From Clostridia bacterium (GTDB lineage Bacteria > Bacillota > Clostridia > Christensenellales > UBA1242), in the NCBI GenBank assembly GCA_017501645.1, contig JAFVWN010000004.1, positions 1-64,000 of the forward strand: a stretch of 64,000 nt of DNA. The letters are read 5' to 3'. A program made the translations under genes and the position numbers. The notes under the pieces were generated by a model, which was not told where the DNA came from, did not search any database, and was given only the letters and a program-made list of their open reading frames with translations. Positions 6,204-25,395 of this stretch are shown one piece after another. Position 1 is the stretch's first letter. Each line of letters opens with the position of its first letter.

Positions 6204-7133
6204 ATGAAAATTGAACTTTTTAATATTTGGTATTTTGTTTCAATAATTTTATCTGCTGGTGTTTTTGTGGGGCTTTACTTTTTGCTTAGGAACAAAAGTG
6301 ACAAAACAAAAAAGATAGTTTTGTTTTCTATCCTTGCGTTTGCCCTTGTTTTACATTTTTTGAAAGCCCTTTGGCCTCCTTATTCAATAAATAAGGCTGT
6401 TTGGTATGAAAACTCTTGGTTTGTAAACATTTGTGGTGCAAATATTGCAGTCTTTCCGTTCTTGTTTTTATCAAAAAGAAAGGGCGTAAAAGACTATATG
6501 GTGTATATAGGCTTGATAAGTGGTGTGATTTCACTGCTTTATCCTGTGGAGATTATAGAAAATGCAAATCATAATATTTATTGGATTGACACTTTAAGAT
6601 TTTATATTCACCACACAATTATATGGGTTGTTCCTCTTTTGATGGTAACGCTTAAACTTCATAAGCTTAGTTGGAGAAGAGTTTGGACTGCTCCTGTTGG
6701 GCTTTTAATTTTGATGCTATTTATAATGCTTAATGATGTTTTACAATCCGAGCTTGGCTTTATTGCTGTTCGTGATGGAAACTTTGATGTTGTCAATTTC
6801 CATAACGGTTCGCTTATTTGGGGAGCGAAAGGGGACATCGGTGACTTTTTGATGTTGTTTTGTCCGGACTTTTTCAAAACAGTGCCAGTTGGACCGCACG
6901 CAGGTCAGTTTAAGTGTTGGCCTTGGTTCTGGATGATATTCCCTGTGTTTATTTTGATAACACCTATAGCTTTTGGTATTTGTATGATTTTTGATTATAA
7001 AAATTTTGCCAGCGATATGAAAAAATTGTGGGCAAAACTATTTACTAAAAAGAAAAAAGTTGCAACTGTAGAGGTTGCAGAAAATAATACTGAAAGCAGT
7101 ATTGAAAACAATGAAAATAAAGAAGATAAATAG
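6204..7133 (+). CDS. YwaF-like (TMEM164-type) integral membrane protein
   Basis: The start at 6204 is chosen because GAGGTG lies about 7 bases upstream; an earlier TTG at 6183 has no ribosome site. The 309-residue product has about six or seven hydrophobic segments and the features of the YwaF/TIGR02206 family, including PPYS after the second segment, an IHHTIIW histidine pair and an LFCPDFF loop. The C-terminal tail is charged and low in complexity (Lys/Glu/Asn). Function is unknown in this family. It follows the glycerol genes closely and may share their transcript. Confidence 0.8.
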   Translation: MKIELFNIWYFVSIILSAGVFVGLYFLLRNKSDKTKKIVLFSILAFALVLHFLKALWPPYSINKAVWYENSWFVNICGANIAVFPFLFLSKRKGVKDYMVYIGLISGVISLLYPVEIIENANHNIYWIDTLRFYIHHTIIWVVPLLMVTLKLHKLSWRRVWTAPVGLLILMLFIMLNDVLQSELGFIAVRDGNFDVVNFHNGSLIWGAKGDIGDFLMLFCPDFFKTVPVGPHAGQFKCWPWFWMIFPVFILITPIAFGICMIFDYKNFASDMKKLWAKLFTKKKKVATVEVAENNTESSIENNENKEDK

Positions 7134-8384: not shown

Positions 8385-9302
8385 ATGGAAAAAGTTATTT
8401 TTGATTTAGATATTGGTGTTGATGATGCAATGGCTCTTATTATGGGTATCAATGACCCAGAGGTTGACATAAAGCTTGTTACTACCGTTTTTGGTAATGT
8501 TAGCGTTGAGCAAGCAACTAAAAACGCCTGCTATATTATTGAGCAATGTGCAAAAACAGACATTCCAGTTTTCTTTGGTGCGTCTAAAGGACTTAAGACT
8601 GAGGGTATAAACGCAATGGATGTTCACGGCAGAACTGGACTAGGAACAAAAGTTGTTGCAGAGAATGTAAGCAAGTATCCGCTTAACACTTCTTCTTATG
8701 GGGCGGTTGAGGCTATGAGGGATATGATTTTTCGCTATCCTAACGAAATTACAATTTTAAGTGTTGGGCCTGTTACAAACCTTGCTACCCTTTTTGTTAA
8801 GTATCCAGAAGTGAAAGACAAAATCAAGAGAGTGGGTATTGAAGTTGGTTCTGTTGATGGAAAGGGAAGCATAACTCCGTATTCAAGTTTTAATGCTTAC
8901 TGTGACCCTGAAGCTGTTGACATTGTAATCAAAAGCGGAGTTCCTATAACTCTTACAACTAAAGAAATTGGAACATCTGCATTTTTTGATGAAGAACAAA
9001 GAACAAGATTTAAAAATGCTGGAAGGGTTGGGCCACTTTTGTATGACCTATGCGAGGGATACAAGGACAAGCTTCTTGAACCGGGGCATTATGCCGTTCA
9101 CGATACTTGTGTGCTTTTTGCAATTTTGAAAACAGATATATTCACTCGTCAAAATGTGGATATGGTTATAAATACCACTAATGATGAGAAAAGAGGTCAA
9201 ACAAAGTTTAAAAACAATGACAACAGTCACATAACTTTGGTTACTAGTGTTGACAAGAAAAAACTCTTCAAAAAGATGGAAAACAATATAAAATTGAGTT
9301 AA
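8385..9302 (+). CDS. Nucleoside hydrolase (inosine-uridine preferring family)
   Basis: The 305-residue protein carries the calcium-binding N-terminal motif of nucleoside hydrolases as DLDIGVDDAMAL (D7, D9, D13, D14; the usual form is DTDPGxDDA). It also has the ITILSVGPVTNLA strand and a late AVHDTCVLFAI block with the conserved His-Asp. These enzymes cleave the N-glycosidic bond of nucleosides to a base and ribose in salvage. A TATAAT-like hexamer at about 8354 and AGGTTTCT before the ATG are the likely signals. It stands alone between two terminators. Confidence 0.9.
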   Translation: MEKVIFDLDIGVDDAMALIMGINDPEVDIKLVTTVFGNVSVEQATKNACYIIEQCAKTDIPVFFGASKGLKTEGINAMDVHGRTGLGTKVVAENVSKYPLNTSSYGAVEAMRDMIFRYPNEITILSVGPVTNLATLFVKYPEVKDKIKRVGIEVGSVDGKGSITPYSSFNAYCDPEAVDIVIKSGVPITLTTKEIGTSAFFDEEQRTRFKNAGRVGPLLYDLCEGYKDKLLEPGHYAVHDTCVLFAILKTDIFTRQNVDMVINTTNDEKRGQTKFKNNDNSHITLVTSVDKKKLFKKMENNIKLS

Positions 9303-9324
9303 AACTCAAAAATAGGTGTTTTTT

Positions 9325-9358
9325 ATGCGATAAAGTAGGGGCTTTGTCGCATATTTTT
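9325..9358 (+). terminator. Terminator after the nucleoside hydrolase gene
   Basis: ATGCGATAAAG at 9325-9335 pairs with CTTTGTCGCAT at 9342-9352 (one G-T pair), with loop TAGGGG, followed by ATTTTTAT. Confidence 0.8.
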
Positions 9359-9370
9359 ATGCTAAAACTA

Positions 9371-9399
9371 TTGTAAAATTTTTAGGGCTATGTTATAAT
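9371..9399 (+). promoter_or_regulatory. Sigma-A promoter of the giant coiled-coil protein gene
   Basis: TTGTAA and TATAAT are spaced by exactly 17 bp, ending 54 bp upstream of the ATG at 9454. A GGAGG lies just before the start. Confidence 0.75.
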
Positions 9400-9453: not shown

Positions 9454-12400
9454 ATGCCAGAAGAAAATCAATCAAGAACAGTCCCATTACTTGACAATAT
9501 TAGGGACTACACATTGCTTTACAATTATGTAAACGCATTTAGACAGATTCAACTTGAGTCTGGAGATATTTATGAGAGGATAAGTGAAAACGAGCGTAAA
9601 AACGGTGTGACTTTTAACCCTAAAAGTTTGACCGTTAAGGGTATGGTTGAGCTTATTCATAAGTATCCAAGCATTACTAACATTGGTACTGCAAATCAAA
9701 AGAAGTTGGCTCAACTTCATAATTATGCAACAAGCATTAGTAGTGACTTCCCAACAACCGACCAAATTGACGCAGAAAAAGCAAGATATGAGTCTGTTAT
9801 GCATCAAAGGGATATTGACACTGCACAAGCTGTTGAAGCTCGAGCTCAAGAACTTAAAGGCCTAAAGAAGAACCACAGAAAGAGTGGAAGAAAACTTGTG
9901 GGTGCTGTTGTTCTTGGTGTTCTTGGTGCTGTGTTGACTGCTGGTATCGTTGGTGCTTTTGGTACTGCAGTGTTTGGATTAATTACAAACGCTGTTACTC
10001 TTGGTGCTGGTATCACTAGTGGGCTTGCTGTTGGTGGTCTTGTTGTTGGTATCGTTGGTGGAAGACTTCTATTCAATGGATTATCTAAGATGTTCTCTAA
10101 AATAAGAAGCAGATTTGGTAAGGCTAGAGAGGACTGGAGAGGTACAAGAGCTAAACTAAGAGATGCTAAGAAAGAATACAGAAAAGAAAAAGCACAAAGA
10201 AGACTTGCTGAAAGAGCAATTGCATTTGATAATGCTTATAGCAGAGAGCCATATCCAGGAAGAAACTTGTTCAATGCTAATGAGTATAATAATGCAAGAA
10301 ATCTCAATATGCAAGAAATGCCTCATATTGAGCCAACTCCAGAAGAGCAAGCAGAGCTTGAAGAGACTAGAAGAAGAATTGCTGAGCAAGAAGCTAGAAG
10401 AAATGCTGGAAGACAAAGACAACAAGGAAATGATCAAAACCTTGAAAACAGTGAAGAAGAATTAACAGGAGAAGAACCAGAAGAACAACAAACTGGCGAA
10501 CAAAACGAAAGCGAGAGCGAAGGCGGTCAACAAGGTGGTGAGCAACCTGGAAGAGAAACTGAAGCTGAACCTATTGTTGTTGGTGGCGGAAGATCAAGAG
10601 GTCCAGTTCTTGATGAAGAGATTGTTGAAGAACTTGATGATGATGAAGAGGAAGAATTAAACAGAGTTCTTAACAACGAAACAAACGAAGAAAATAACGA
10701 GACAAACGAAGAAAACAACGAAGAAAATGCAACTGAAGTTGCTCCTGTTTATAATTTTGCAAATATGGATACTGATGATATTTATAGTGATATCCAAGAT
10801 ATGCAAAAAGAGGACGAAAGACTTGGAAGAAGACTTTCTAGAACAAAAAGTGCAGACAAACAAGAGCAGTTTACTAACGCTCGTAAAGAAAATGAAGAAA
10901 AACTTAATGCTTATAAAGAAGAACTTGGCAAGAGAACAATAACTCCAAAAATTGCAAGTGCTCTTTATGAAGACCAAGAAGTTACTCCTAAAGATCTTGA
11001 GAGTATTGAAGAAGACAAAGAAGAAGCTCCTAGAATATCTTCTAGAGAAATTAGAAGAATTATGAAAGAAGCTGAGGCAAACGCCCAAGCACTTGACAAT
11101 GAACTTAAAACAAATAATAGACTCACTGTCAATGAATACAGAGAAAGAGTTCAAAAGAGAAATGCTTATAACTATTTCGCAGCAGAAATGGAAAATGAAC
11201 TTTCTGCAAGAACAGCTTTTGAAGAGTTTAAGTATGGCGAGCAAGGAATGGCTCTTAGAAGAGCTCTTGACGGAGCTGGCAATGAGTACTTAGAAGCTCT
11301 AATTGGTGATTTTGCAAGAAATATGCCTAAAGTTGCAAGAGCTATGGAGGCTAATGGTACTGGCGGTACTGTTTGGGGCGCTGGTGAAAGACTTGATGAC
11401 CAAGCTATTGAATATATCACTAAACTTGGTGAGTCTAATTTTGGTCAACAGCTTGTTGCTGAGCTTCTTGAAGAAAGAAAATTGACTGCAGGTGTTGATA
11501 CAGCTAAGGTATTTGAATTAAGAAATGAAGCATTACAAGAATACAATTCACTAAAAGGTGCTCCAAATGTTGACTCTATTGAGCTTGCTAAAGCAGAAAG
11601 TGAATTTAGAATGTATGATAGAGAGCTTGATACAAGAGACCTTGAAGCAGATAAAGACACAATTGCTACTGGTATGCAAGATAAAGGTAACTGGGATAGA
11701 GATGCTTATGCTTCTCAAGTTACTGCAGTTAATGAAGAAATCAACAAAAAAGAAACTGTTGGTGTTCTTGAGACTGAGGTTGAAGACACTGTAATCACTC
11801 TTCGTAAGAAGAAAGAAAGAGCAGAGACTATGCTCAAAGAGGTTCAAGAAAAAACAACTATACAAACTCCTGATGGCGGAAAAGTTGAAACTGTTCCTAA
11901 TGGTGTTAAGTTTAGCGAATATGAAGGTGCTTTAGTAGTTAGAGAAACTATTATGCAAAATATACAATCTCTTGATAGTCAAATTGCAGAGATTGAAAAT
12001 GCAAACAGAGAAGAAATTGAAAGAAGAATTGCAGAAGCTAAGAAAATTCAAGTTGCATTGATGGTAAATCCTGATGCTTTAACTTGGGTTGGAGTTCCTG
12101 CTCCTGAAGTAGCAATGGGAAGAGCCTTTAAAGAAGAAAAGGCTATTACACCAGAACAAGCGAAAGCTTATCTTGATGAGTTTGAAAAAACCGGCATTCT
12201 TCCTGAGTTTGACGGACTTGATGCAGACCCTGAATTTAGGGCTTTGGCTGAACAAATAAGAATTAACTCATTTGGCAGAACTCCATCTGCTGATGGTGTT
12301 AATGTTAAAAAGTCTTTGGAAGAACTTGGCAAAGAACAAGAAATTGAAGAAAGCAGAGTTGAGCTTGAAAACATAAAAACAAAAGTCGCTGGCTGGAGAG

Positions 12401-15400
12401 AACAAGCTGTTAAAGATGGTCTTATCGCTGAAGAAGACAAGAATGACCAAGGCTTATTCGTTATAGCGAATAATCAAGCAGCTCTTGATGCTGGCTATCC
12501 AGATGATGTTCAAATTTCAAGGCTTATTGGAAGAGCAAGAGTATTGCTTGGCAGAGTTGTTCCTTATGATCAACAAAAAAAACATACAGGTCTTGATGGC
12601 GAGACTCACATTGCTACAAAAGAGGGCTTAGAAAAGGCTGTTGAGGCATTTACATCTTTCCTTAGAGAAAAAGCTAATGTTCTTGAAAACGCAGAAGAGG
12701 AAATTGTTGAAATTCTACCTACTCAAGACGAGCAAGAGAGAGAAAACAACTTAGAAAACAGCGAAACAGAACAAAATGAAACTGAAGCGACAGATACTGC
12801 AGAAGCAGAACAAACAGAAACTGAAGCGACAGATACTGCAGAACCAGAACAAACTGAAAATGAGGCGACAGTTGAAGCTGAAAATACTGAAATAGAGCCT
12901 ACTGAAACTGCAGAAACAGAACAAACAGAAGCTGAGGCGACAGATACTGCAGAAACAGAACAAACAGAAGCTGAAGCGACAGTTGAAGCTGAAAATACTG
13001 AAGTAGAGTCTACTGAAACTGCAGAAGCAGAACAAACAGAAGCTGAGGCGACAGATACTGCAGAACCAGAACAAACTGAAACTGAGGCAACTCAAACTGA
13101 GGCTGTTGCTGAAGAAGAAGCAGAACAAACAGAAGAAGAACCTGCTCAAGAAATTAAACTCGGCATTGCTCTTGATTCTCTTGCACATAGAAATAACAGA
13201 AGAGAAGAGGAAATGTCAGTATTTAGTGCTTATGGTCCAGCGCTTGGTGAAACTGCGACTATTGAGGATGCTCAAAAGTTCCTTGAAGCACTTGATAGAG
13301 GTGAAATTATTGAGCTTGACAGAATTGAAGCAAGACCTGATTTTGCTGAAATTCTTGACACCATTAAAGTTAATATGGTTGGTCGCCCTGGCGATAAAAA
13401 CTATAATATTCAAAAAGCTATTCAGTTCTATGAAGATGAAGTTGCAAAGGCTGACAAGTATGAGGCTAAGCGTGTTGAGGCTGGAAAGAAACTTCAAGAA
13501 GCAAGACAAAAAGCTGTTGATGCTGGTTTAGTTGAAAAAGAAAGACTTAACGAAGAAGGCTTCTGTCCGGTTGCTGCGAACCAAGCAGCTATTGATGCTG
13601 GTTATCCAACTTGGGAACAATCTAATGAATTATTTATTCAACTTATTGAAGCTGAAGAAAAACTTCAAGCAATTGAAGACAATACTACTCATAAAGACAG
13701 AAATGGTGTTGTTCATAAAGGAAGCAAAGATGCATTAGTAAGCGCTGTTGAAGAAGCTAAACATTATCTAAGATCTTTCATTATGGAAAAACAAGTTCTT
13801 GGTGCTGAAAATGCTGTTGACCAAGATAAAGAAGATCAAGAAAATGCACTTCAAGCTCTCATTAGAAAAGCAAGAGGATTTATTGCTCCAATTGTAGGCA
13901 GAAAGAAACCTAAGAAGAAAGGACAAACTCCTGAAAACACACCTCAAAGCAGAGCAGAGCAAATCATTACTAAAGATATGCTTCGTATGCAATTTGTTGC
14001 TAAATTCAAAAAAGGCAACGAGAAGGGTAAGGTTACTGGCGACATTCTTGGTGCTAGAAGAGAAATGATAGATGCTATGCTTGGTGCTTTAAGAATGTCT
14101 GAAAAAACTTCAGGTATTAAAGAAGAAGACTTCATTCCAAAAGAAATTCTTGAGGAAATGGTTGATGAGTTTATCAACGAAACTAAAGAGTTTAAGGGTA
14201 AATGGCATAACCTTGTTCAAGAAAAAGAAGCAGAACTTAACGCTTCAAGAGAAAATGCTCCTGAAGTTCAAGCAGAAAATCAACCTGAAGCTGTTGAAGA
14301 AAAGAAACCTGAAGAAGATGCTGAAAATGTGGAAATTTTACCTGTTGCAGAAGAGGAAGAAAAGAGACGCAAGTCTACTCAAGGCCTCAACATTGAAGTT
14401 TCTTCAAGAATGAGCATTAAAGAAGAAGGTTTTGTATTCCATAGAGGAGAAGTTTCATTCGTTATCCCTCACGAAAAAATGGTTGTTGTTGATAATGATA
14501 TCAAGGCTATGAGAGAGGCTGGTAAAACTGAACAACAAATCATTGAAAAACTTGCTGGTGATTACAAGAATAAGTTCGCTTATGAGGGCAGAACAAAGAA
14601 AATTGTTCAAGGTCAAAAGAACTTTGCTCAAGTTGTTAAGAGTTATGACGAACGCCAAGAAGCTATTAAAAATATTGAAAATGCAAGTGAAGAAGACGAT
14701 TTACAACAAGTTGTAGATGCTGGTGAAGCTAAGAGACTTGAAGAAGCTCGCAGAGAAGAAGAGGCTAGAGAGCGTGAAGCCCAAGAAGAAGCAAGGCGTC
14801 AGGCTGAAGAAGCTAAGCGTCAGGCTGAAGAAGCTGAGCGTCAAGCAGAAGAGGCAAGGCGTCAAGCTCAAGAAGAGGCAGAGCGCAGGGTTCAAGAAGA
14901 AGCTGCTAAGGCTCAAAAAGAAGAACTTGCAAACAGCAATCTTGCTTCTAGAATGACTGTTTCTCAAGATGGTTTTGAATTTAAGAATAACAAAGGTAAA
15001 ACTTTTGTCGTTCCATATAGCAAGATGGAAAACATTGCTAAAACTATTGAAGTGCTTGAAACTAAAGAGTGGGGCGGAAATAGAGAAGAGCAAATTGCTA
15101 AGCGTCTCACAGGTACTAAGGGCATTAGCACCGGTATCAAGTACAGAAGAGAAGACGGAGAAATCGTAAGACAAGGTAGCGTTACTGGTTTTGAAAACTT
15201 TGAACAAATTTATAAAACTTATGGTTCTCAAAAGGCTGAGATAATGCAGGCTATTGAAGAAGATAAACTTCGTCAAGCAGAAGCTCAAAAAGCAAGAGAG
15301 GCTGAGGCTGAGCGTAAAGCAGAGGAAGCAAGGCGTCAAGCTGAAGAAGTTAAGCGTCAGGCTGAAGAAGAAGCAAGGCGTCAAGCTGAGCGTCAGGCAG

Positions 15401-16017
15401 AAGAAGCAAGGCGTCAAGCTGAAGAAGAGGCAAGGCGTCAAGCTGAAGAAGCTAATCGTCAGGCTGAGGAAGAGGCAAGGCGTCAAGCTGAGGAAACTAA
15501 GCGTCAAGCAGAGGAAGAGGCAAGGCGTCAAGCTGAAGAAGCAAGGCGTCAGGCTGAGGAAGAAGCAAGGCGTCAAGCAGAAGAAACTAAGCGTCAGGCA
15601 GAGGAAGAAGCAAGGCGTCAAGCTGAGGAAACACAACATCAAGCTGAACAACCTGCTAAAAAGCAAAAGAGTGCTAAACTCCAAGCTGTTGAAGAACAAC
15701 TTAGAGCCCATTATGAAAATGGAGGAAAGCTTTCTCAACAACAATTTGATAAGGCATTATTTGAAGCTGGTTTAACTGCTGATGATACTCTTCTTGCTCA
15801 AGGTATTTACCAAGGATTAGAGGCTCAAAGACAAGAAACTATCAAGCAACAAAAAATTGAGAATCTAAGAAGAGCAAGAGAAGAAAAAGCTCAGCAAAAT
15901 CCTGAGGTTCAAGAAGATAACAAACCAAAACAAAACCCAGAAAACAAATCATCAAACAATAACAACAATAACAATAATAACAACAATGATGATAACCAAG
16001 AAATGGGTGCTGAATAA
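9454..16017 (+). CDS. Giant (2187-residue) membrane-anchored coiled-coil protein with duplicated modules
   Basis: No known family is recognised. The order of parts is as follows. An N-terminal helical region is followed by a glycine- and valine-rich hydrophobic hairpin at residues ~149-210, probably two membrane helices. Long acidic stretches come next (~295-430). Module A occurs twice (~867-1084 and ~1235-1450; shared landmark NNQAALDAGYP versus ANQAAIDAGYP), separated by an Asp/Glu/Thr/Ala tandem repeat (~1103-1229). Module B occurs twice (~1645-1746 and ~1825-1939; SSRMSIKEEGF versus ASRMTVSQDGF, then a VIPHEKM/VVPYSKM strand). Each B module is followed by EARRQAEE coiled-coil repeats, the second with a 45-bp period at about 15325-15640. 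A short helical domain and an Asn-rich tail end the protein. There is no signal peptide, so the bulk may be cytoplasmic or exposed depending on topology. It has its own promoter and two terminators. A structural or scaffold role is the simplest guess. Confidence 0.9.
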   Translation: MPEENQSRTVPLLDNIRDYTLLYNYVNAFRQIQLESGDIYERISENERKNGVTFNPKSLTVKGMVELIHKYPSITNIGTANQKKLAQLHNYATSISSDFPTTDQIDAEKARYESVMHQRDIDTAQAVEARAQELKGLKKNHRKSGRKLVGAVVLGVLGAVLTAGIVGAFGTAVFGLITNAVTLGAGITSGLAVGGLVVGIVGGRLLFNGLSKMFSKIRSRFGKAREDWRGTRAKLRDAKKEYRKEKAQRRLAERAIAFDNAYSREPYPGRNLFNANEYNNARNLNMQEMPHIEPTPEEQAELEETRRRIAEQEARRNAGRQRQQGNDQNLENSEEELTGEEPEEQQTGEQNESESEGGQQGGEQPGRETEAEPIVVGGGRSRGPVLDEEIVEELDDDEEEELNRVLNNETNEENNETNEENNEENATEVAPVYNFANMDTDDIYSDIQDMQKEDERLGRRLSRTKSADKQEQFTNARKENEEKLNAYKEELGKRTITPKIASALYEDQEVTPKDLESIEEDKEEAPRISSREIRRIMKEAEANAQALDNELKTNNRLTVNEYRERVQKRNAYNYFAAEMENELSARTAFEEFKYGEQGMALRRALDGAGNEYLEALIGDFARNMPKVARAMEANGTGGTVWGAGERLDDQAIEYITKLGESNFGQQLVAELLEERKLTAGVDTAKVFELRNEALQEYNSLKGAPNVDSIELAKAESEFRMYDRELDTRDLEADKDTIATGMQDKGNWDRDAYASQVTAVNEEINKKETVGVLETEVEDTVITLRKKKERAETMLKEVQEKTTIQTPDGGKVETVPNGVKFSEYEGALVVRETIMQNIQSLDSQIAEIENANREEIERRIAEAKKIQVALMVNPDALTWVGVPAPEVAMGRAFKEEKAITPEQAKAYLDEFEKTGILPEFDGLDADPEFRALAEQIRINSFGRTPSADGVNVKKSLEELGKEQEIEESRVELENIKTKVAGWREQAVKDGLIAEEDKNDQGLFVIANNQAALDAGYPDDVQISRLIGRARVLLGRVVPYDQQKKHTGLDGETHIATKEGLEKAVEAFTSFLREKANVLENAEEEIVEILPTQDEQERENNLENSETEQNETEATDTAEAEQTETEATDTAEPEQTENEATVEAENTEIEPTETAETEQTEAEATDTAETEQTEAEATVEAENTEVESTETAEAEQTEAEATDTAEPEQTETEATQTEAVAEEEAEQTEEEPAQEIKLGIALDSLAHRNNRREEEMSVFSAYGPALGETATIEDAQKFLEALDRGEIIELDRIEARPDFAEILDTIKVNMVGRPGDKNYNIQKAIQFYEDEVAKADKYEAKRVEAGKKLQEARQKAVDAGLVEKERLNEEGFCPVAANQAAIDAGYPTWEQSNELFIQLIEAEEKLQAIEDNTTHKDRNGVVHKGSKDALVSAVEEAKHYLRSFIMEKQVLGAENAVDQDKEDQENALQALIRKARGFIAPIVGRKKPKKKGQTPENTPQSRAEQIITKDMLRMQFVAKFKKGNEKGKVTGDILGARREMIDAMLGALRMSEKTSGIKEEDFIPKEILEEMVDEFINETKEFKGKWHNLVQEKEAELNASRENAPEVQAENQPEAVEEKKPEEDAENVEILPVAEEEEKRRKSTQGLNIEVSSRMSIKEEGFVFHRGEVSFVIPHEKMVVVDNDIKAMREAGKTEQQIIEKLAGDYKNKFAYEGRTKKIVQGQKNFAQVVKSYDERQEAIKNIENASEEDDLQQVVDAGEAKRLEEARREEEAREREAQEEARRQAEEAKRQAEEAERQAEEARRQAQEEAERRVQEEAAKAQKEELANSNLASRMTVSQDGFEFKNNKGKTFVVPYSKMENIAKTIEVLETKEWGGNREEQIAKRLTGTKGISTGIKYRREDGEIVRQGSVTGFENFEQIYKTYGSQKAEIMQAIEEDKLRQAEAQKAREAEAERKAEEARRQAEEVKRQAEEEARRQAERQAEEARRQAEEEARRQAEEANRQAEEEARRQAEETKRQAEEEARRQAEEARRQAEEEARRQAEETKRQAEEEARRQAEETQHQAEQPAKKQKSAKLQAVEEQLRAHYENGGKLSQQQFDKALFEAGLTADDTLLAQGIYQGLEAQRQETIKQQKIENLRRAREEKAQQNPEVQEDNKPKQNPENKSSNNNNNNNNNNNDDNQEMGAE
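12770..13120 (+). repeat. Tandem coding repeat (39-bp unit and ~111-bp higher-order unit)
   Basis: The repeat encodes 13-residue units of the type ATDTAEAEQTETE, alternating with 24-residue units that start ATVEAENTE. The order shows a nested duplication. It lies inside the giant protein gene as a linker between the two A modules. Confidence 0.85.
15325..15640 (+). repeat. 45-bp tandem coding repeats (EEARRQAEETKRQAE coiled coil)
   Basis: About seven copies of a 15-residue, two-heptad-like unit made of Glu, Ala, Arg and Gln form a charged single-helix or coiled-coil region. A shorter block of the same kind lies at about 14790-14890. Confidence 0.85.
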
Positions 16018-16024
16018 TAACTAA

Positions 16025-16053
16025 AGGCAAGGCTTAACCGCCCTGCCTTTTTT
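16025..16053 (+). terminator. First terminator after the giant gene
   Basis: AGGCAAGGC pairs with GCCCTGCCT around loop TTAACC with one mismatch, then a six-T run. Confidence 0.8.
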
Positions 16054-16082
16054 ATAAAAAAAAGAAAATTGCTTAAAAATAA

Positions 16083-16113
16083 GGCTTGTCTCGAGGTAGA
16101 CAGGTCTTTTTTT
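16083..16113 (+). terminator. Second, tandem terminator after the giant gene
   Basis: GGCTTGTCT pairs with AGACAGGTC over 9 bp (two G-T pairs), followed by seven T residues. Confidence 0.75.
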
Positions 16114-16182: not shown

Positions 16183-17266
16183 ATGGACTATAAACAAACA
16201 TTAGACGAACTTCAAAAAAAGCTGATTCATATCAGCCACTGTCTTTGACATTGATAAATTAAAACAACAAGAAAAAGAACTCAAAAGTGAGCTTGCTGAC
16301 CCTGAGGTGTATTCAAATTTTGAGCTTAGTAACACTATTTCAAAAAAACAGGCTTCTATTTCAAGAGTTGTTGCTGGGTTTGAGGATGTAAATGGTTCTC
16401 TTGAAACAATGAGGGAGTTATACACTCTCTATAACGGTGAACTTGCGGAAGAAGATGCTGTTGCTTTTGAAAAAGAGCTTAAAGAGACCGCTGAAGAAAT
16501 AGAAAAACTTTATATTGAAAGTCTTTATAGCGAAAAAAATGATGATGCAAATGTGCTTTTTGAAATCCATTCAGGTGCTGGCGGTGAAGAGGCTCAAGAT
16601 TGGGCTGAGATGCTTGAGCGTATGTATCTTGGCTATGCGGATAAAATGGATTACGAAATGACTCTAGTTTTTAAAAACAAGGGTGATGGGGCAGGCTTCA
16701 AAAGTGCAGGCTATATAATAAAAGGAATAAACGCATATGGCAACCTCAAGAATGAAAGAGGGGTACATAGGCTTGTGCGTATTTCTCCGTTTGATGCAAA
16801 TAAGAGAAGACACACTTCTTTCGCAAGCGTAGAAGTTTCGCCAATTTTAGACAAACAAAAACTCGAGATAAATCTTAGTGATGTAAAAATCGACACTTTC
16901 CGCAGTGGTGGAGCTGGTGGGCAGAATGTAAACAAGGTTGAGTCTGCGGTAAGACTTACGCATATTCCAACAGGCATTGTTGTCTCTTGTCAAAATGAAA
17001 GAAGTCAGCTTCAAAACAAGGAAATGGCATTTCAAATGCTTTATGCGAAACTAAACGAGCTGGAAGAAAAGAAAGAGGCTGAACAAAAGGCAAAAGAAAA
17101 GGGAATGCAAATGAAAAACGAGTGGGGAAGCCAAATAAGAAGCTATGTATTGTATCCTTATAAAATGGTAAAAGACCTTAGGACAAACATAGAAACCTCA
17201 AATACTGAAGATTTTCTTTCAGGAAATATCCACGAGTTTATTATTGCAAATTTGAAAAATAAATAG
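16183..17266 (+). CDS. prfB: Peptide chain release factor 2 (programmed +1 frameshift)
   Basis: RF2 recognises UGA and UAA stops and triggers peptidyl-tRNA hydrolysis on the ribosome. Translation starts at ATG 16183 behind AGGTGG. Codon 21 (CTT, 16243-16245) is followed by in-frame TGA; a +1 shift that skips T16246 continues in the long frame ([17 protein letters not shown]). The joined product is about 360 residues, normal for RF2. The UGA-specificity tripeptide SPF is at ~201-203 and the catalytic GGQ at ~245-247 ([21 protein letters not shown]). The Shine-Dalgarno-like purine run that usually stimulates the shift is not evident upstream of CTTTGA. Annotating only from the internal GTG at 16307 would lose the N terminus. 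Confidence 0.95.
16243..16249 (+). other. Programmed +1 ribosomal frameshift site of prfB
   Basis: CTTTGAC is the canonical slippery heptamer: Leu codon CTT, then TGA, then C. Reading through as CTT-GAC restores the RF2 frame. The preceding codons are ATC AGC CAC TGT, with no AGGGG-type element. Confidence 0.95.
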
Positions 17267-21820: not shown

Positions 21821-21861
21821 AATATGTGTAAAGGTATAAACTAAAGAGAAAGGTGGAAGTT

Positions 21862-24800
21862 TTGAACAAAAAATTAAATATATTGTTAATAATTTTGTTA
21901 CCAATAATATGTCTTGTAATAGCAGGCATACCTTTTACTTTGGCAGATTATCCTGAAACACAAACAGAACAAACAATGAACGGCACAAGTGCAGAAGATA
22001 CAGGTGCAAGCACTGCAGATAAATCTCTTAAAGGTGGGGCGTTATATATAAGTGGTGGAGCAACATATACAATGACAGGTGGTTCTATTACTGGAAAAAC
22101 CAACCAATATGGTGGAGCAGTATATGTAACAAATGGTTCAACCTTTACAATGACAGGTGGAACAATCACTGGTTGTACAGCTCTTTATGGCGGGGCAATC
22201 TATGTTGAGGCAGGTGGTACTTGTAATATAACAGGTGGTACAATTACTGGCAATAAAGCACAATATGCTCCAGCAATCTATGTAGAAGATGGTGGAGTAC
22301 TTAATGTAGACCAAACCGCAGTAATTAAAGATAATGAATATGAGTTATATGGTAACTTGCTAGAGGTTTATGTAGACGGAACACTTGTTCAATCTCGATA
22401 TATCAAGGCTGATACATATACAATTGACGAAAATGAAATGCCACTTGATTATGAGCATTGTTGCGGATATTTCTTAGATGAAAAGTTAAGTCAATGTTCA
22501 TTTGGAGAGGTTGCACTTACAAGCGAGGCTATGGGCTTTGCACCAAGAACAGCAGATGCTGAAGAGTATGTTGCGAGGTTGTATACCAAAACAGCAAACC
22601 CAAATAATTTTACATTTACATTCAACAGCACAACGCAAACATATGACATAAGAGCCATAAATACTAGTATAAGTGGGCATATAGTACTCCCAAAAGAATA
22701 TGATAATATACAGACAAGTATTTATGACGGACCTTCTAGTACAAACAACGCTTTTTATTTCTGTAAAAATATGACAGGAATAACTTTTCAAGAAGGTATT
22801 AATATAATTTCTCCATATACTCTTTATTCTTCAGTTATTGAACAAGAAATTGTTATTCCAAATAGTGTTACAGTGATTGGCAAATCGGCATTCTCTAACA
22901 GTGTAATATCAGGGAATTTGGTTATCCCAAATAGTGTGTTAGAAATAAGAGAAAAAGCTTTTAGGAATTGTGATAAATTAACAGGAGACTTGGTTATACC
23001 CGATAGTGTGTTAACAATAGGAAATAGTGCTTTTCATGATTGTCAAGGATTTAATGGTCGGTTAATTATAAGTAATAGCATTGAAATAATTAGTGAATCC
23101 GCTTTTTTTCAGGCAACGAGTTTTACAGGAGATTTAATAATTCCTAATAGTGTAAAAACGATAGGTGGGCAAGCATTTACGAATTGCACAGGATTTACAG
23201 GAAATTTGGTCTTAGGAACAGGTTTAGAAGAAATAGATGAATGTGCTTTTTGGGCATGTAGTGGTTTCACTGGAGACTTAATAATTCCGGATAAGGTAAA
23301 AACTATAGGAGGGTATGCTTTTTTAAACAATACTGGATTCAAAGGTTGTTTAAAATTAGGAGAAAGCTTAATCACTATAGGTGAAAAAGCGTTTGGTCAT
23401 TGCGCTGGTTTAACAGGTGGATTGGTTATACCTGATAGTGTAAAAACCATAGAAGCTGACGCTTTTTATGGTTGTAAAGGTTTAACAGGCAGTTTAACAA
23501 TAGGTAAAAATGTAGAGACAATAGGTGGTGCCGCTTTTATGTCTTGCACTAAATTGTCTGGAAATTTGATTTTGCCAGACAGTGTAATAACTATTGGTGC
23601 AAGCGCATTCTATAATTGTTACGGGTTAACAGGAGATTTAATAATACCCGATTCTGTAACAACTATTGGTGCAAGCGCATTCTTTAATTGTTACAAGTTA
23701 ACAGGAGATTTAATAATACCCGATTCTGTAACAACTTTAGGTGATAAAGCGTTTGAAAGTTGTTCAGGTTTTAATGGGTATTTAACAATTGGTAATAATG
23801 TTACAAGTATAGGATATTCTGCATTCCTTTCTTGCAGTGGATTGACAGAAGTAAAAGTATCAAGCGGTAACACTATATATGAAGACAGAGGGAAGAATGC
23901 AATAATAGAAAAAAGTACAAATACAATAATACAAGGATTTGATTGTACAGATTTAAGTATGCTAGAAGAAGTAACAATTATAGGAGATTATGCATTTTCT
24001 CATTGTAGAGAATTAACAGGAAAATTAATAATACCAAACAATATAACAAGTTTAGGAGTTTGTTCATTTCGATATTGTACAGGGTTAGAAGGTGTATATT
24101 TACCGAGCAGTGTAACAACGATAACTGCTTCAAGTTATTCAAATGCACCATTTCGTAATTGTTCAAGTAGTTTAGTAATATATACAGATGTTGCAAATGT
24201 GGAAAGTATACCAAGCGGTTGGGGTGCTTATTGGAATTATTATGATAGCTCATACCAGCTCGAAGTGGTTTATGGTTGTTCGATTGATAGTGAGGGGAAT
24301 ATTGTAACCCCAACAACAATTAATTTCTATGTGGATGGAAGTTTCCATAGTTCTATGGTAAAATTTGGCTCTTCCTACGAGGTTCAAGAAGAAGAAATGC
24401 CTCTTGATTACGAACATTGCTGTGGATATTTCTTAGATGATATCTATATGACAACAATAAAGAACAACACTATTGATTTGTCTAATGGTGATGTAAATTT
24501 ATATACGAGAACTGCAAACGATTCAACTTGCTTTACATTTGAAATGAATGAAACGACAGGCAATTATGATATAGTTGGCACAACTCTAACAAGTGGGGAT
24601 ATTGTTTTACCAAAAGAACACCTTGGTGTTCAGGTGGGGATTGGTATAACTGATAATGAAATAGAGCCTGCAGTATATGAAATTGTATTTTCAGGGGCTG
24701 GCATAACATCAATAATATTGCCTGCCGGAATTACAGAGTTGATTGATGGTGTATTTCAAAGCGCAATGTCTCTAAATTTAATTGATAGTTGGTCAATCAA

Positions 24801-25395
24801 TATTCCAGATTCAATAACATATATAGGCATAAATGCTTTTAGTAATCAATCAGGTTTACATACAATAACACCAATTCAAAATGGGGTTATAAGAAATTAC
24901 TCATTCTTGCGTTGCGTTGGATTAACTGGAAGTGTAACAATAGGGGATGGTGTAACAAGTATAGGAGATTCTGCATTCAAGTATTGCAGTGGATTAACAA
25001 GTGTAATAATAGGAAATAGTGTAACAAGTATAGGTTCTTCTGCATTCAATTCTTGCAGTGGATTAACAAGTGTATATATTCCAAGCAGTGTGACAACAAT
25101 ATCTGCTTCATATTATTCCGGTGCACCATTTTATGATTGTTCAAGTAGTTTGGTAATATATACAGATATTGCAAATGCTTCAAGTGTACCAGCTGGCTGG
25201 GGTACATATTGGAATTATAAGTCTTCAAGTGCTACTTATACAACAAACTACGGTTACACTCTCGAACAGTATAAATCTGCGGTTGGACTTGAATTTGCTT
25301 CAACTTCTGGCACAGAAATAAATGATAGCCAGTTAGAGATTGAAATAATAATAGAAAAAAGACAGGAAATAGAACCTGTCTTTTTTTATGACTAA
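21862..25395 (+). CDS. Large BspA-like LRR surface protein with N-terminal GGAxY beta-helix module
   Basis: TTG at 21862 is preferred (AAAGGTGG five bases upstream); a GTG at 21853 overlaps that ribosome site. The 1177-residue product starts with a signal peptide (MNKKLNILLIILLPIICLVIAGI). Residues ~45-150 hold four GGAxY/MTGGxIT repeats like the beta-helix repeats of polymorphic outer-membrane proteins. A MPLDYEHCCGYFLDE module follows, then more than twenty LRR_5/BspA repeats. A second copy of the module, a few more LRRs, and the TNYGYTLEQYKSAVGLEFA tail come last. It is likely secreted, and the final ~20 residues give no clear anchor. Three other proteins in the window share parts of it. 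The terminator is embedded in the last codons. Binding to host or polymer surfaces is inferred from the family. Confidence 0.9.
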   Translation: MNKKLNILLIILLPIICLVIAGIPFTLADYPETQTEQTMNGTSAEDTGASTADKSLKGGALYISGGATYTMTGGSITGKTNQYGGAVYVTNGSTFTMTGGTITGCTALYGGAIYVEAGGTCNITGGTITGNKAQYAPAIYVEDGGVLNVDQTAVIKDNEYELYGNLLEVYVDGTLVQSRYIKADTYTIDENEMPLDYEHCCGYFLDEKLSQCSFGEVALTSEAMGFAPRTADAEEYVARLYTKTANPNNFTFTFNSTTQTYDIRAINTSISGHIVLPKEYDNIQTSIYDGPSSTNNAFYFCKNMTGITFQEGINIISPYTLYSSVIEQEIVIPNSVTVIGKSAFSNSVISGNLVIPNSVLEIREKAFRNCDKLTGDLVIPDSVLTIGNSAFHDCQGFNGRLIISNSIEIISESAFFQATSFTGDLIIPNSVKTIGGQAFTNCTGFTGNLVLGTGLEEIDECAFWACSGFTGDLIIPDKVKTIGGYAFLNNTGFKGCLKLGESLITIGEKAFGHCAGLTGGLVIPDSVKTIEADAFYGCKGLTGSLTIGKNVETIGGAAFMSCTKLSGNLILPDSVITIGASAFYNCYGLTGDLIIPDSVTTIGASAFFNCYKLTGDLIIPDSVTTLGDKAFESCSGFNGYLTIGNNVTSIGYSAFLSCSGLTEVKVSSGNTIYEDRGKNAIIEKSTNTIIQGFDCTDLSMLEEVTIIGDYAFSHCRELTGKLIIPNNITSLGVCSFRYCTGLEGVYLPSSVTTITASSYSNAPFRNCSSSLVIYTDVANVESIPSGWGAYWNYYDSSYQLEVVYGCSIDSEGNIVTPTTINFYVDGSFHSSMVKFGSSYEVQEEEMPLDYEHCCGYFLDDIYMTTIKNNTIDLSNGDVNLYTRTANDSTCFTFEMNETTGNYDIVGTTLTSGDIVLPKEHLGVQVGIGITDNEIEPAVYEIVFSGAGITSIILPAGITELIDGVFQSAMSLNLIDSWSINIPDSITYIGINAFSNQSGLHTITPIQNGVIRNYSFLRCVGLTGSVTIGDGVTSIGDSAFKYCSGLTSVIIGNSVTSIGSSAFNSCSGLTSVYIPSSVTTISASYYSGAPFYDCSSSLVIYTDIANASSVPAGWGTYWNYKSSSATYTTNYGYTLEQYKSAVGLEFASTSGTEINDSQLEIEIIIEKRQEIEPVFFYD
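25355..25388 (+). terminator. Terminator encoded within the last codons of the LRR gene
   Basis: AAAAAAGACAGG (25355-25366) pairs perfectly with CCTGTCTTTTTT (25375-25386). The stop codon follows at 25393-25395, so the hairpin is translated as KRQEIEPVFF. Confidence 0.85.

Follow-up and report, generated by a model that had tools for sequence, protein, structure and literature searches.

A giant gene upstream of prfB

What kind of protein is encoded by the giant open reading frame that lies upstream of prfB in this Clostridia bacterium, and how did it come to be built as it is? The window, that is, the whole stretch of 64,000 nucleotides analysed here, holds 50 ORFs of at least 150 residues, the longest of which runs from ATG to stop at positions 9454..16017 of the plus strand and encodes 2187 residues, compared with 1180 for the runner-up; its description as the largest gene in the window by the first-pass annotation is correct. 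The chain is acidic overall (net charge -160, 17% Glu, one Cys) and carries long low-complexity arms. All features below lie on the plus strand unless stated otherwise.

The N-terminus comprises a soluble helical domain (residues 1–149, 9454..9900), which is found throughout the genus (leave-one-out HMM E-values of 4e-17 to 1e-24 for the seven genus members), and a Gly-rich membrane hairpin (residues 150–214, 9901..10095), the hydrophobic core of which contains 16 Gly and has positively charged flanks (net +7 over the 20 residues that precede it and net +7 over the 25 that follow). A hairpin had previously been proposed at residues 149–210, and our placement bears this out. The hairpin is followed by a basic segment (residues 215–260, 10096..10233), assigned from alignment and composition, and by an acidic, low-complexity linker rich in Q, N and E (residues 290–440 approximately, 10321..10773), assigned from composition, from which a longer stretch of ordinary composition leads to the first of the duplicated modules. 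At the opposite end, a small C-terminal region separates a long charged helix from a poly-Asn linker that terminates in NQEMGAE (residues 2141–2187, 15874..16017, as read from the sequence).

The gene is preceded by a nucleoside hydrolase-like gene (8385–9302, named by reading) and followed by prfB, a 154-residue ORF and tsaD (prfB and tsaD likewise named by reading), with no companion gene between the 2187-residue frame and prfB. The mechanically called prfB ORF starts at 16307; by reading, an ATG at 16185 with CTT TGA C behind it (16185–16250) is the apparent true start, which suggests that prfB uses the usual programmed frameshift of RF2 and that the true intergenic gap would be about 170 bases. 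A promoter-like TTGTAA-17-TATAAT with a TG before the second hexamer (9371..9399) matches 10 of 12 consensus positions, although sites of such quality number 22 in the region with 18.6 expected, so that it is weak when taken alone. Two terminator-like stems precede prfB (16023..16108): that at 16081–16108 is on the plus strand, while that at 16023–16050 was listed on the minus strand, with TTTTTT also trailing on the plus strand (by reading); a further stem (9324–9353) follows the upstream gene. Of the promoter and two terminators assigned previously, both terminator-like stems are present, and the promoter-like site has the limited weight just given. Together, the promoter-like site and the two closing stems indicate that the gene is probably a single-gene unit. 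In addition, an open frame of 347 residues runs antisense to the repeats (14701–15744, minus strand) and is most likely a by-product of repeat composition. Elsewhere in the window, BspA-type leucine-rich-repeat proteins are encoded at 102–1295 and 21853–25395, the second having 1180 residues and eight matched stretches.

Two module duplications and their repeat arrays

The body of the protein contains two modules, A and B, each present twice. Module A occupies residues 871–1086 (12064..12711) and 1241–1452 (13174..13809), and module B residues 1641–1748 (14374..14697) and 1823–1942 (14920..15279); all four copies are delineated by self-alignment and supported by BLAST. When residues 867–1084 are aligned with 1235–1450, the Smith-Waterman score is 204, whereas 500 shuffles averaged 38.7 and never exceeded 69; for residues 1645–1746 against 1825–1939 the score is 105, with shuffles averaging 30.7 and reaching at most 61. 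Self-BLAST of the whole protein with low-complexity masking returned exactly these two pairs (E 2.8e-14 for A and 5.4e-7 for B), while none of 110 block-shuffled controls (5 each for 22 proteins) gave any self-match and the other 21 proteins of the set contained no internal pair by the same criterion. The earlier proposal of two separate duplications thus stands well clear of chance. The copies are 31% (A) and about 30% (B) identical and retain many shared positions.

The spacers between the copies are repetitive. An acidic array rich in E, T and A (12763..13088) lies between the A copies and is built of 39-nt and 111-nt units, with 92% matches for the latter, whereas the helical E/R/Q/A repeat between the B copies (14785..14903), assigned from the repeat listing and its salt-bridge density, is less regular (21-nt unit, 78–82%). 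A second, long E/R/Q/A helical repeat with a 15-residue period (15321..15647) follows module B, and the tail repeats have a 45-nt unit (84%) and a 135-nt unit (90%). The term near-identical, as had been claimed for the nucleotide repeats between copies, therefore describes the A spacer and the tail better than the B spacer. The number of repeat units could be wrong in this MAG assembly. The unit length is a multiple of three in all 16 listed repeat rows and the frame is kept through the arrays.

Repeated stretches are also found in other members of the genus. The orthologue in G005 contains a unit of approximately 58 residues three times, with 3 of 10 segment pairs exceeding all 500 shuffles, the five segments compared having been picked by eye, and the first gene of the G003 locus shares a stretch of approximately 220 residues with its neighbour (E about 1e-7).

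A probable single charged helix in place of a coiled coil

The protein had been labelled a coiled-coil protein, which is doubtful for the EARRQAEE-type helix, where the period is 15 rather than 7 residues. Within residues 1945–2070, the autocorrelation of hydrophobic residues is 0.70 at lag 15, 0.56 at lag 4 and 0.51 at lag 11, compared with 0.27 at lag 7, and the 7-residue hydrophobic period of a classical heptad coiled coil is absent. Oppositely charged i,i+4 pairs (E with K or R) occur at 0.329 per residue within residues 1930–2075, compared with 0.141 in shuffled sequence (2.3-fold). A single charged helix would be expected to show just this combination of a 15-residue period and frequent i,i+4 salt bridges. 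The repeat helix therefore resembles a charged single α-helix more closely than it does a coiled coil of the heptad type, although it may still oligomerise.

Family and fold searches

Consistent with the first-pass annotation, which recognised no family, searches of Pfam, NCBIfam, PHROGs, PADLOC and PDB sequences yielded nothing above cut-off for the 2187-residue protein. Modules A and B gave no match better than E 0.5 among PDB sequences and no match among the viral contigs searched. Module B, predicted from two sequences, adopts four strands followed by four helices (mean pLDDT 78), with no Foldseek match among solved structures at E ≤ 0.001 and a best VIA Z of 4.6 (Mu transposase, small terminase), a level too weak to build on. 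The model of module A is largely helical and of low confidence (mean pLDDT 57.9), and likewise gave no Foldseek match at E ≤ 0.001. The open-licence literature searched contained nothing on this protein or locus.

Several known proteins show a partial likeness. DUF6861 (PF21724) matches residues 148–257 at E 6e-4, but with 19.8 bits, below the Pfam gathering cut-off of 28, and covers only the hairpin and basic helix. TolA is a proteobacterial force transducer of the cell envelope with a single N-terminal membrane segment and a C-terminal globular domain III, encoded in the tol-pal operon. Its NCBIfam model (TIGR02794) matches at E 9e-4 with 18.6 bits, compared with a cut-off of 59.45, the best stretch being residues 1715–1826. 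In both proteins a membrane anchor leads into a long, charged helix that is rich in Ala and varies in length; for domain II of TolA, lengths of 110–335 residues and variable helicity are described (PMC12204202). However, the match is limited to the repeat helix, the 2187-residue protein has a hairpin rather than a single N-terminal segment, and its arm is probably cytoplasmic. Its gene neighbours are the nucleoside hydrolase and prfB. A likeness by description exists with HMW1 and P65, internal core proteins of the attachment organelle of Mycoplasma pneumoniae, which are large, acidic, disordered and helical structural proteins of a small-genome bacterium; we know of no attachment organelle of that kind in this Clostridia lineage. 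RNase Y-like and other hairpin or TM-plus-helix proteins, which likewise have a hydrophobic segment followed by a charged helix, appeared in the wide-profile matches, but were judged to be cross-matches, mostly of the hairpin region only, the RNase Y name coming from the reading of one ORF.

The anchor is retained across the genus

The first ~270 residues, including the soluble domain and the hairpin, are present in all seven genomes of the genus, as detected with a 6-row profile (A1) built from six of them, with G001 left out. The soluble part alone recovers each member when that member is left out of the profile, and the hairpin with its positive flanks is found in all seven, in G002 by an N-terminal contig piece. 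The protein is therefore no isolated orphan: 7/7 genomes of the genus share its N-terminal part, and it keeps its position ahead of prfB. A soluble domain plus hairpin matching A1, together with the position between nucleoside hydrolase and prfB, defines what we call the prfB-slot hairpin family of the genus.

Beyond the genus, the distribution has to be read with care. Searching with the single sequence detected the N-terminal part in 7 of 60 genomes, the genome of origin among them; of these seven, G016 is spurious, its ORF looking like RNase Y (by reading). Profile A1 matched 15 of 297 family genomes including 7/7 of the genus, and the genus members are those securely counted. Matches in G168, G012, G263 and G275 lie at other genomic places and were dropped, those in G031, G027 and G092 lie directly before prfB, and that in G125 lies beside secA-like genes, not prfB. 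At the latter locus (L038:6665-11888), two large ORFs (578 and 1116 residues) stand behind two secA-like genes, away from prfB, and the iterated anchor profile picks up the 578-residue one at 1.4e-10. Once the hairpin is removed from the comparison, G031 alone stands out clearly among the candidates from other genera (E 3.7e-9; hhalign 5.7e-7), and the ~560-residue proteins of the g57 genomes score at HMM E-values of 0.005 to 0.05 for three and 1.2 for the fourth, and at E 2.5e-4 with a probability of 43% by profile-profile comparison. Kinship outside the genus is thus graded, the sequences pointing to a clear relative in G031 and being suggestive for g57; G027, G092, G069 and G068 have no support outside the hairpin. 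The iterated search looks stronger, but admitted only slot-linked proteins, and the hairpin carries much of the score. Likewise, a wide search with a 16-row profile (A5) matched 102 of 376 order genomes including its own, but with E-values elsewhere no better than 9.7e-9 and mostly in the hairpin region, often of ~540-residue ORFs, and is not usable for distribution. Scanning the genome contigs with the whole protein found nothing, and with the nucleoside hydrolase found four genus contigs.

The prfB slot and its companion genes

The order nucleoside hydrolase, gene, zero to two further genes, prfB, tsaD is shared by the window, G001, G003, G004, G005 and G006, with the 154-residue ORF before tsaD in the window and the hydrolase oppositely directed in G001 and G006. 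The G002 gene is divided between two contig ends, with an N-terminal piece by the hydrolase and a C-terminal piece by prfB. We examined 49 prfB loci, nine of which, including the window, were chosen because they bear the gene. A long TM-bearing protein stands before prfB, alone or followed by one or two genes, at 15; at three the long ORF is cut by a contig end, at three nothing lies upstream on the contig, and 16 have other genes. secA lies directly before prfB at nine loci (from several other genera of the family) and one or two small genes away at three. A long or ~560-residue hairpin protein occupies the slot in G031, G027, G092, G069, G068 and four g57 genomes.

Companion genes are present at five genus loci (G001, G003, G004, G005 and G006). 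Directly behind the anchor gene of G005, a 698-residue companion (L012:7056-9152) contains an FtsK gamma domain (PF09397; E 7e-18, above cut-off) outside FtsK, as well as two ~45-residue repeats common to companions in G003 and G004; this repeat is absent from the 2187-residue protein. Two small companion genes (L033:7075-8414, L013:9358-10606) are kept between G001 and G006, evolving far faster than their neighbours; for one of them, a weak LXG-like match falls below cut-off (E 6e-4). The type VII secretion ATPase EssC is above cut-off in none of the seven genus genomes, its sub-cut-off matches coinciding with FtsK gamma ORFs in G000, G001, G003, G004 and G006. Two FtsK gamma matches also occur in a separate 176-residue frame (G000:C6:7151-7573) beside an FtsK-like ORF (gamma 6891–7073), possibly an extra gamma-only gene or a frame break.

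The gamma domain of the G005 companion, together with winged-helix-like stretches seen by eye close to the termini of the proteins of G001 and G006, would fit a tether between chromosome and membrane, with the hairpin embedded in the membrane and DNA contacted by the payload or by a partner encoded in an adjacent gene. We consider such a role unlikely, as the gamma domain occurs at one of the five companion-bearing loci (the G001 companions being judged via the Pfam scan of their G006 orthologues), the window protein has neither a gamma domain (Pfam scan) nor a companion before prfB, and the similarity of module B to DNA-binding chains is weak, with the VIA Z given above as its upper limit.

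The body diverges beyond alignment

Behind the hairpin, the bodies of the genus members align neither with the window protein nor with one another, the only pairings in this comparison being the companion genes of G001 with G006 and of G004 with G005, and the two genes of G003. The length at the slot ranges from 540 to 2187 residues within the genus. Profiles of module A and module B recover their own genome alone, 1 of 391 class genomes and 1 of 297 family genomes, respectively, an absence that holds for genomes sampled evenly from larger groups rather than for nature. The C-terminus reads NQEMGAE in the window protein, PEMGAE in the G002 piece, GPEME in G005 and G006, and GPELGE in G001. Among 493 closed ORFs, 12 end in E[ML]G?A?E?, four of these belonging to the prfB-slot hairpin family, with G003 lacking the motif; the 493 exclude the window protein and the G002 C-terminal piece, both of which fit the motif.

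The anchor itself also changes quickly. Between G001 and G006, prfB is 90% identical, tsaD 95%, nusG and rplK 97% each, and the companions 60% and 48%, compared with 33% for the anchor, and the anchor has a dN of 0.76 compared with 0.074, 0.028, 0.017 and 0.015 for prfB, tsaD, nusG and rplK. Across six genus genomes, the part before the hairpin is 19–36% identical, with 58–83% for the hydrolase and 60–90% for prfB; the neighbouring hydrolase, prfB and tsaD remain 58–95% identical where the bodies are unalignable.

Such rates in the anchor and companions, and the LXG-like match, are what might be expected under diversifying selection on a protein of conflict or antagonism, phage-facing or with a pore-forming or injected hairpin. 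This reading appears improbable to us: no toxin, immunity or defence family was above cut-off, the searches for EssC in the seven genus genomes and for modules A and B in viral contigs were negative, and the anchor dN/dS of about 0.4 between G001 and G006 lies below 1 and does not amount to positive selection, with dS near saturation for both the anchor and prfB. Equally, the unalignable, low-complexity bodies and their range of lengths could reflect weak constraint, with nothing needed beyond the anchor and the sheer bulk or charge of its tail, and with modules and repeats drifting. We give this little credence, since the duplicated modules retain many shared positions at their low identity, the frame persists through arrays whose units are all multiples of three, and the gene is present in every genome of the genus.

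A proposed membrane-anchored scaffold

The reading that we prefer, to which we assign an even chance, is that the protein is a cytoplasm-facing, hairpin-anchored scaffold or tether with a rapidly remodelled payload. The soluble helical domain and the re-entrant Gly-rich hairpin would fix it to the inner face of the membrane; since positive charge flanks the hairpin on both sides, the positive-inside rule would place both protein ends inside the cell, and no signal peptide is seen by reading. The ~1900 residues behind the hairpin would form a flexible, mostly acidic arm in which disordered spacers alternate with long charged helices and with small folded modules, the last of which may bind partners in several copies. 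A conserved anchor joined to a long, charged, multi-module arm suggests a protein that gathers partners at the membrane. Duplication of modules, expansion of repeats and substitution would quickly remodel the payload as the anchor and the gene position persist, and the repeated payload modules found elsewhere at the locus, in G005 and G003, are consistent with this. Against the scaffold reading, we note that long proteins of acidic and helical character tend to be called scaffolds by default, that partner binding is putative for modules with no recognisable fold, and that fast evolution also fits a conflict-related protein or weak constraint.

Implications for possible domain birth at a fixed locus

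Large, low-complexity, membrane-anchored structural proteins are already a known kind; the unusual part here is the fixed slot combined with a private, duplicated payload. More tentatively, and with rather less confidence than in the scaffold, we propose a locus of 'fixed anchor, exchangeable payload', in which a clade of small-genome gut Clostridia would keep one hairpin anchor before prfB and attach to it giant payloads of newly born, duplicated domains that are each species' own. Giant membrane-anchored proteins with hypervariable bodies are difficult to detect by homology and hence missing from family databases, but the constant position before prfB makes the orthologues comparable despite their unalignable bodies. 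With the slot as a handle, the origin, duplication and divergence of domains become testable, as does the retention of an anchor through payload turnover. If the proposal is true, the locus would offer a natural setting in which to follow how protein domains arise and duplicate within a structural or conflict-facing protein.
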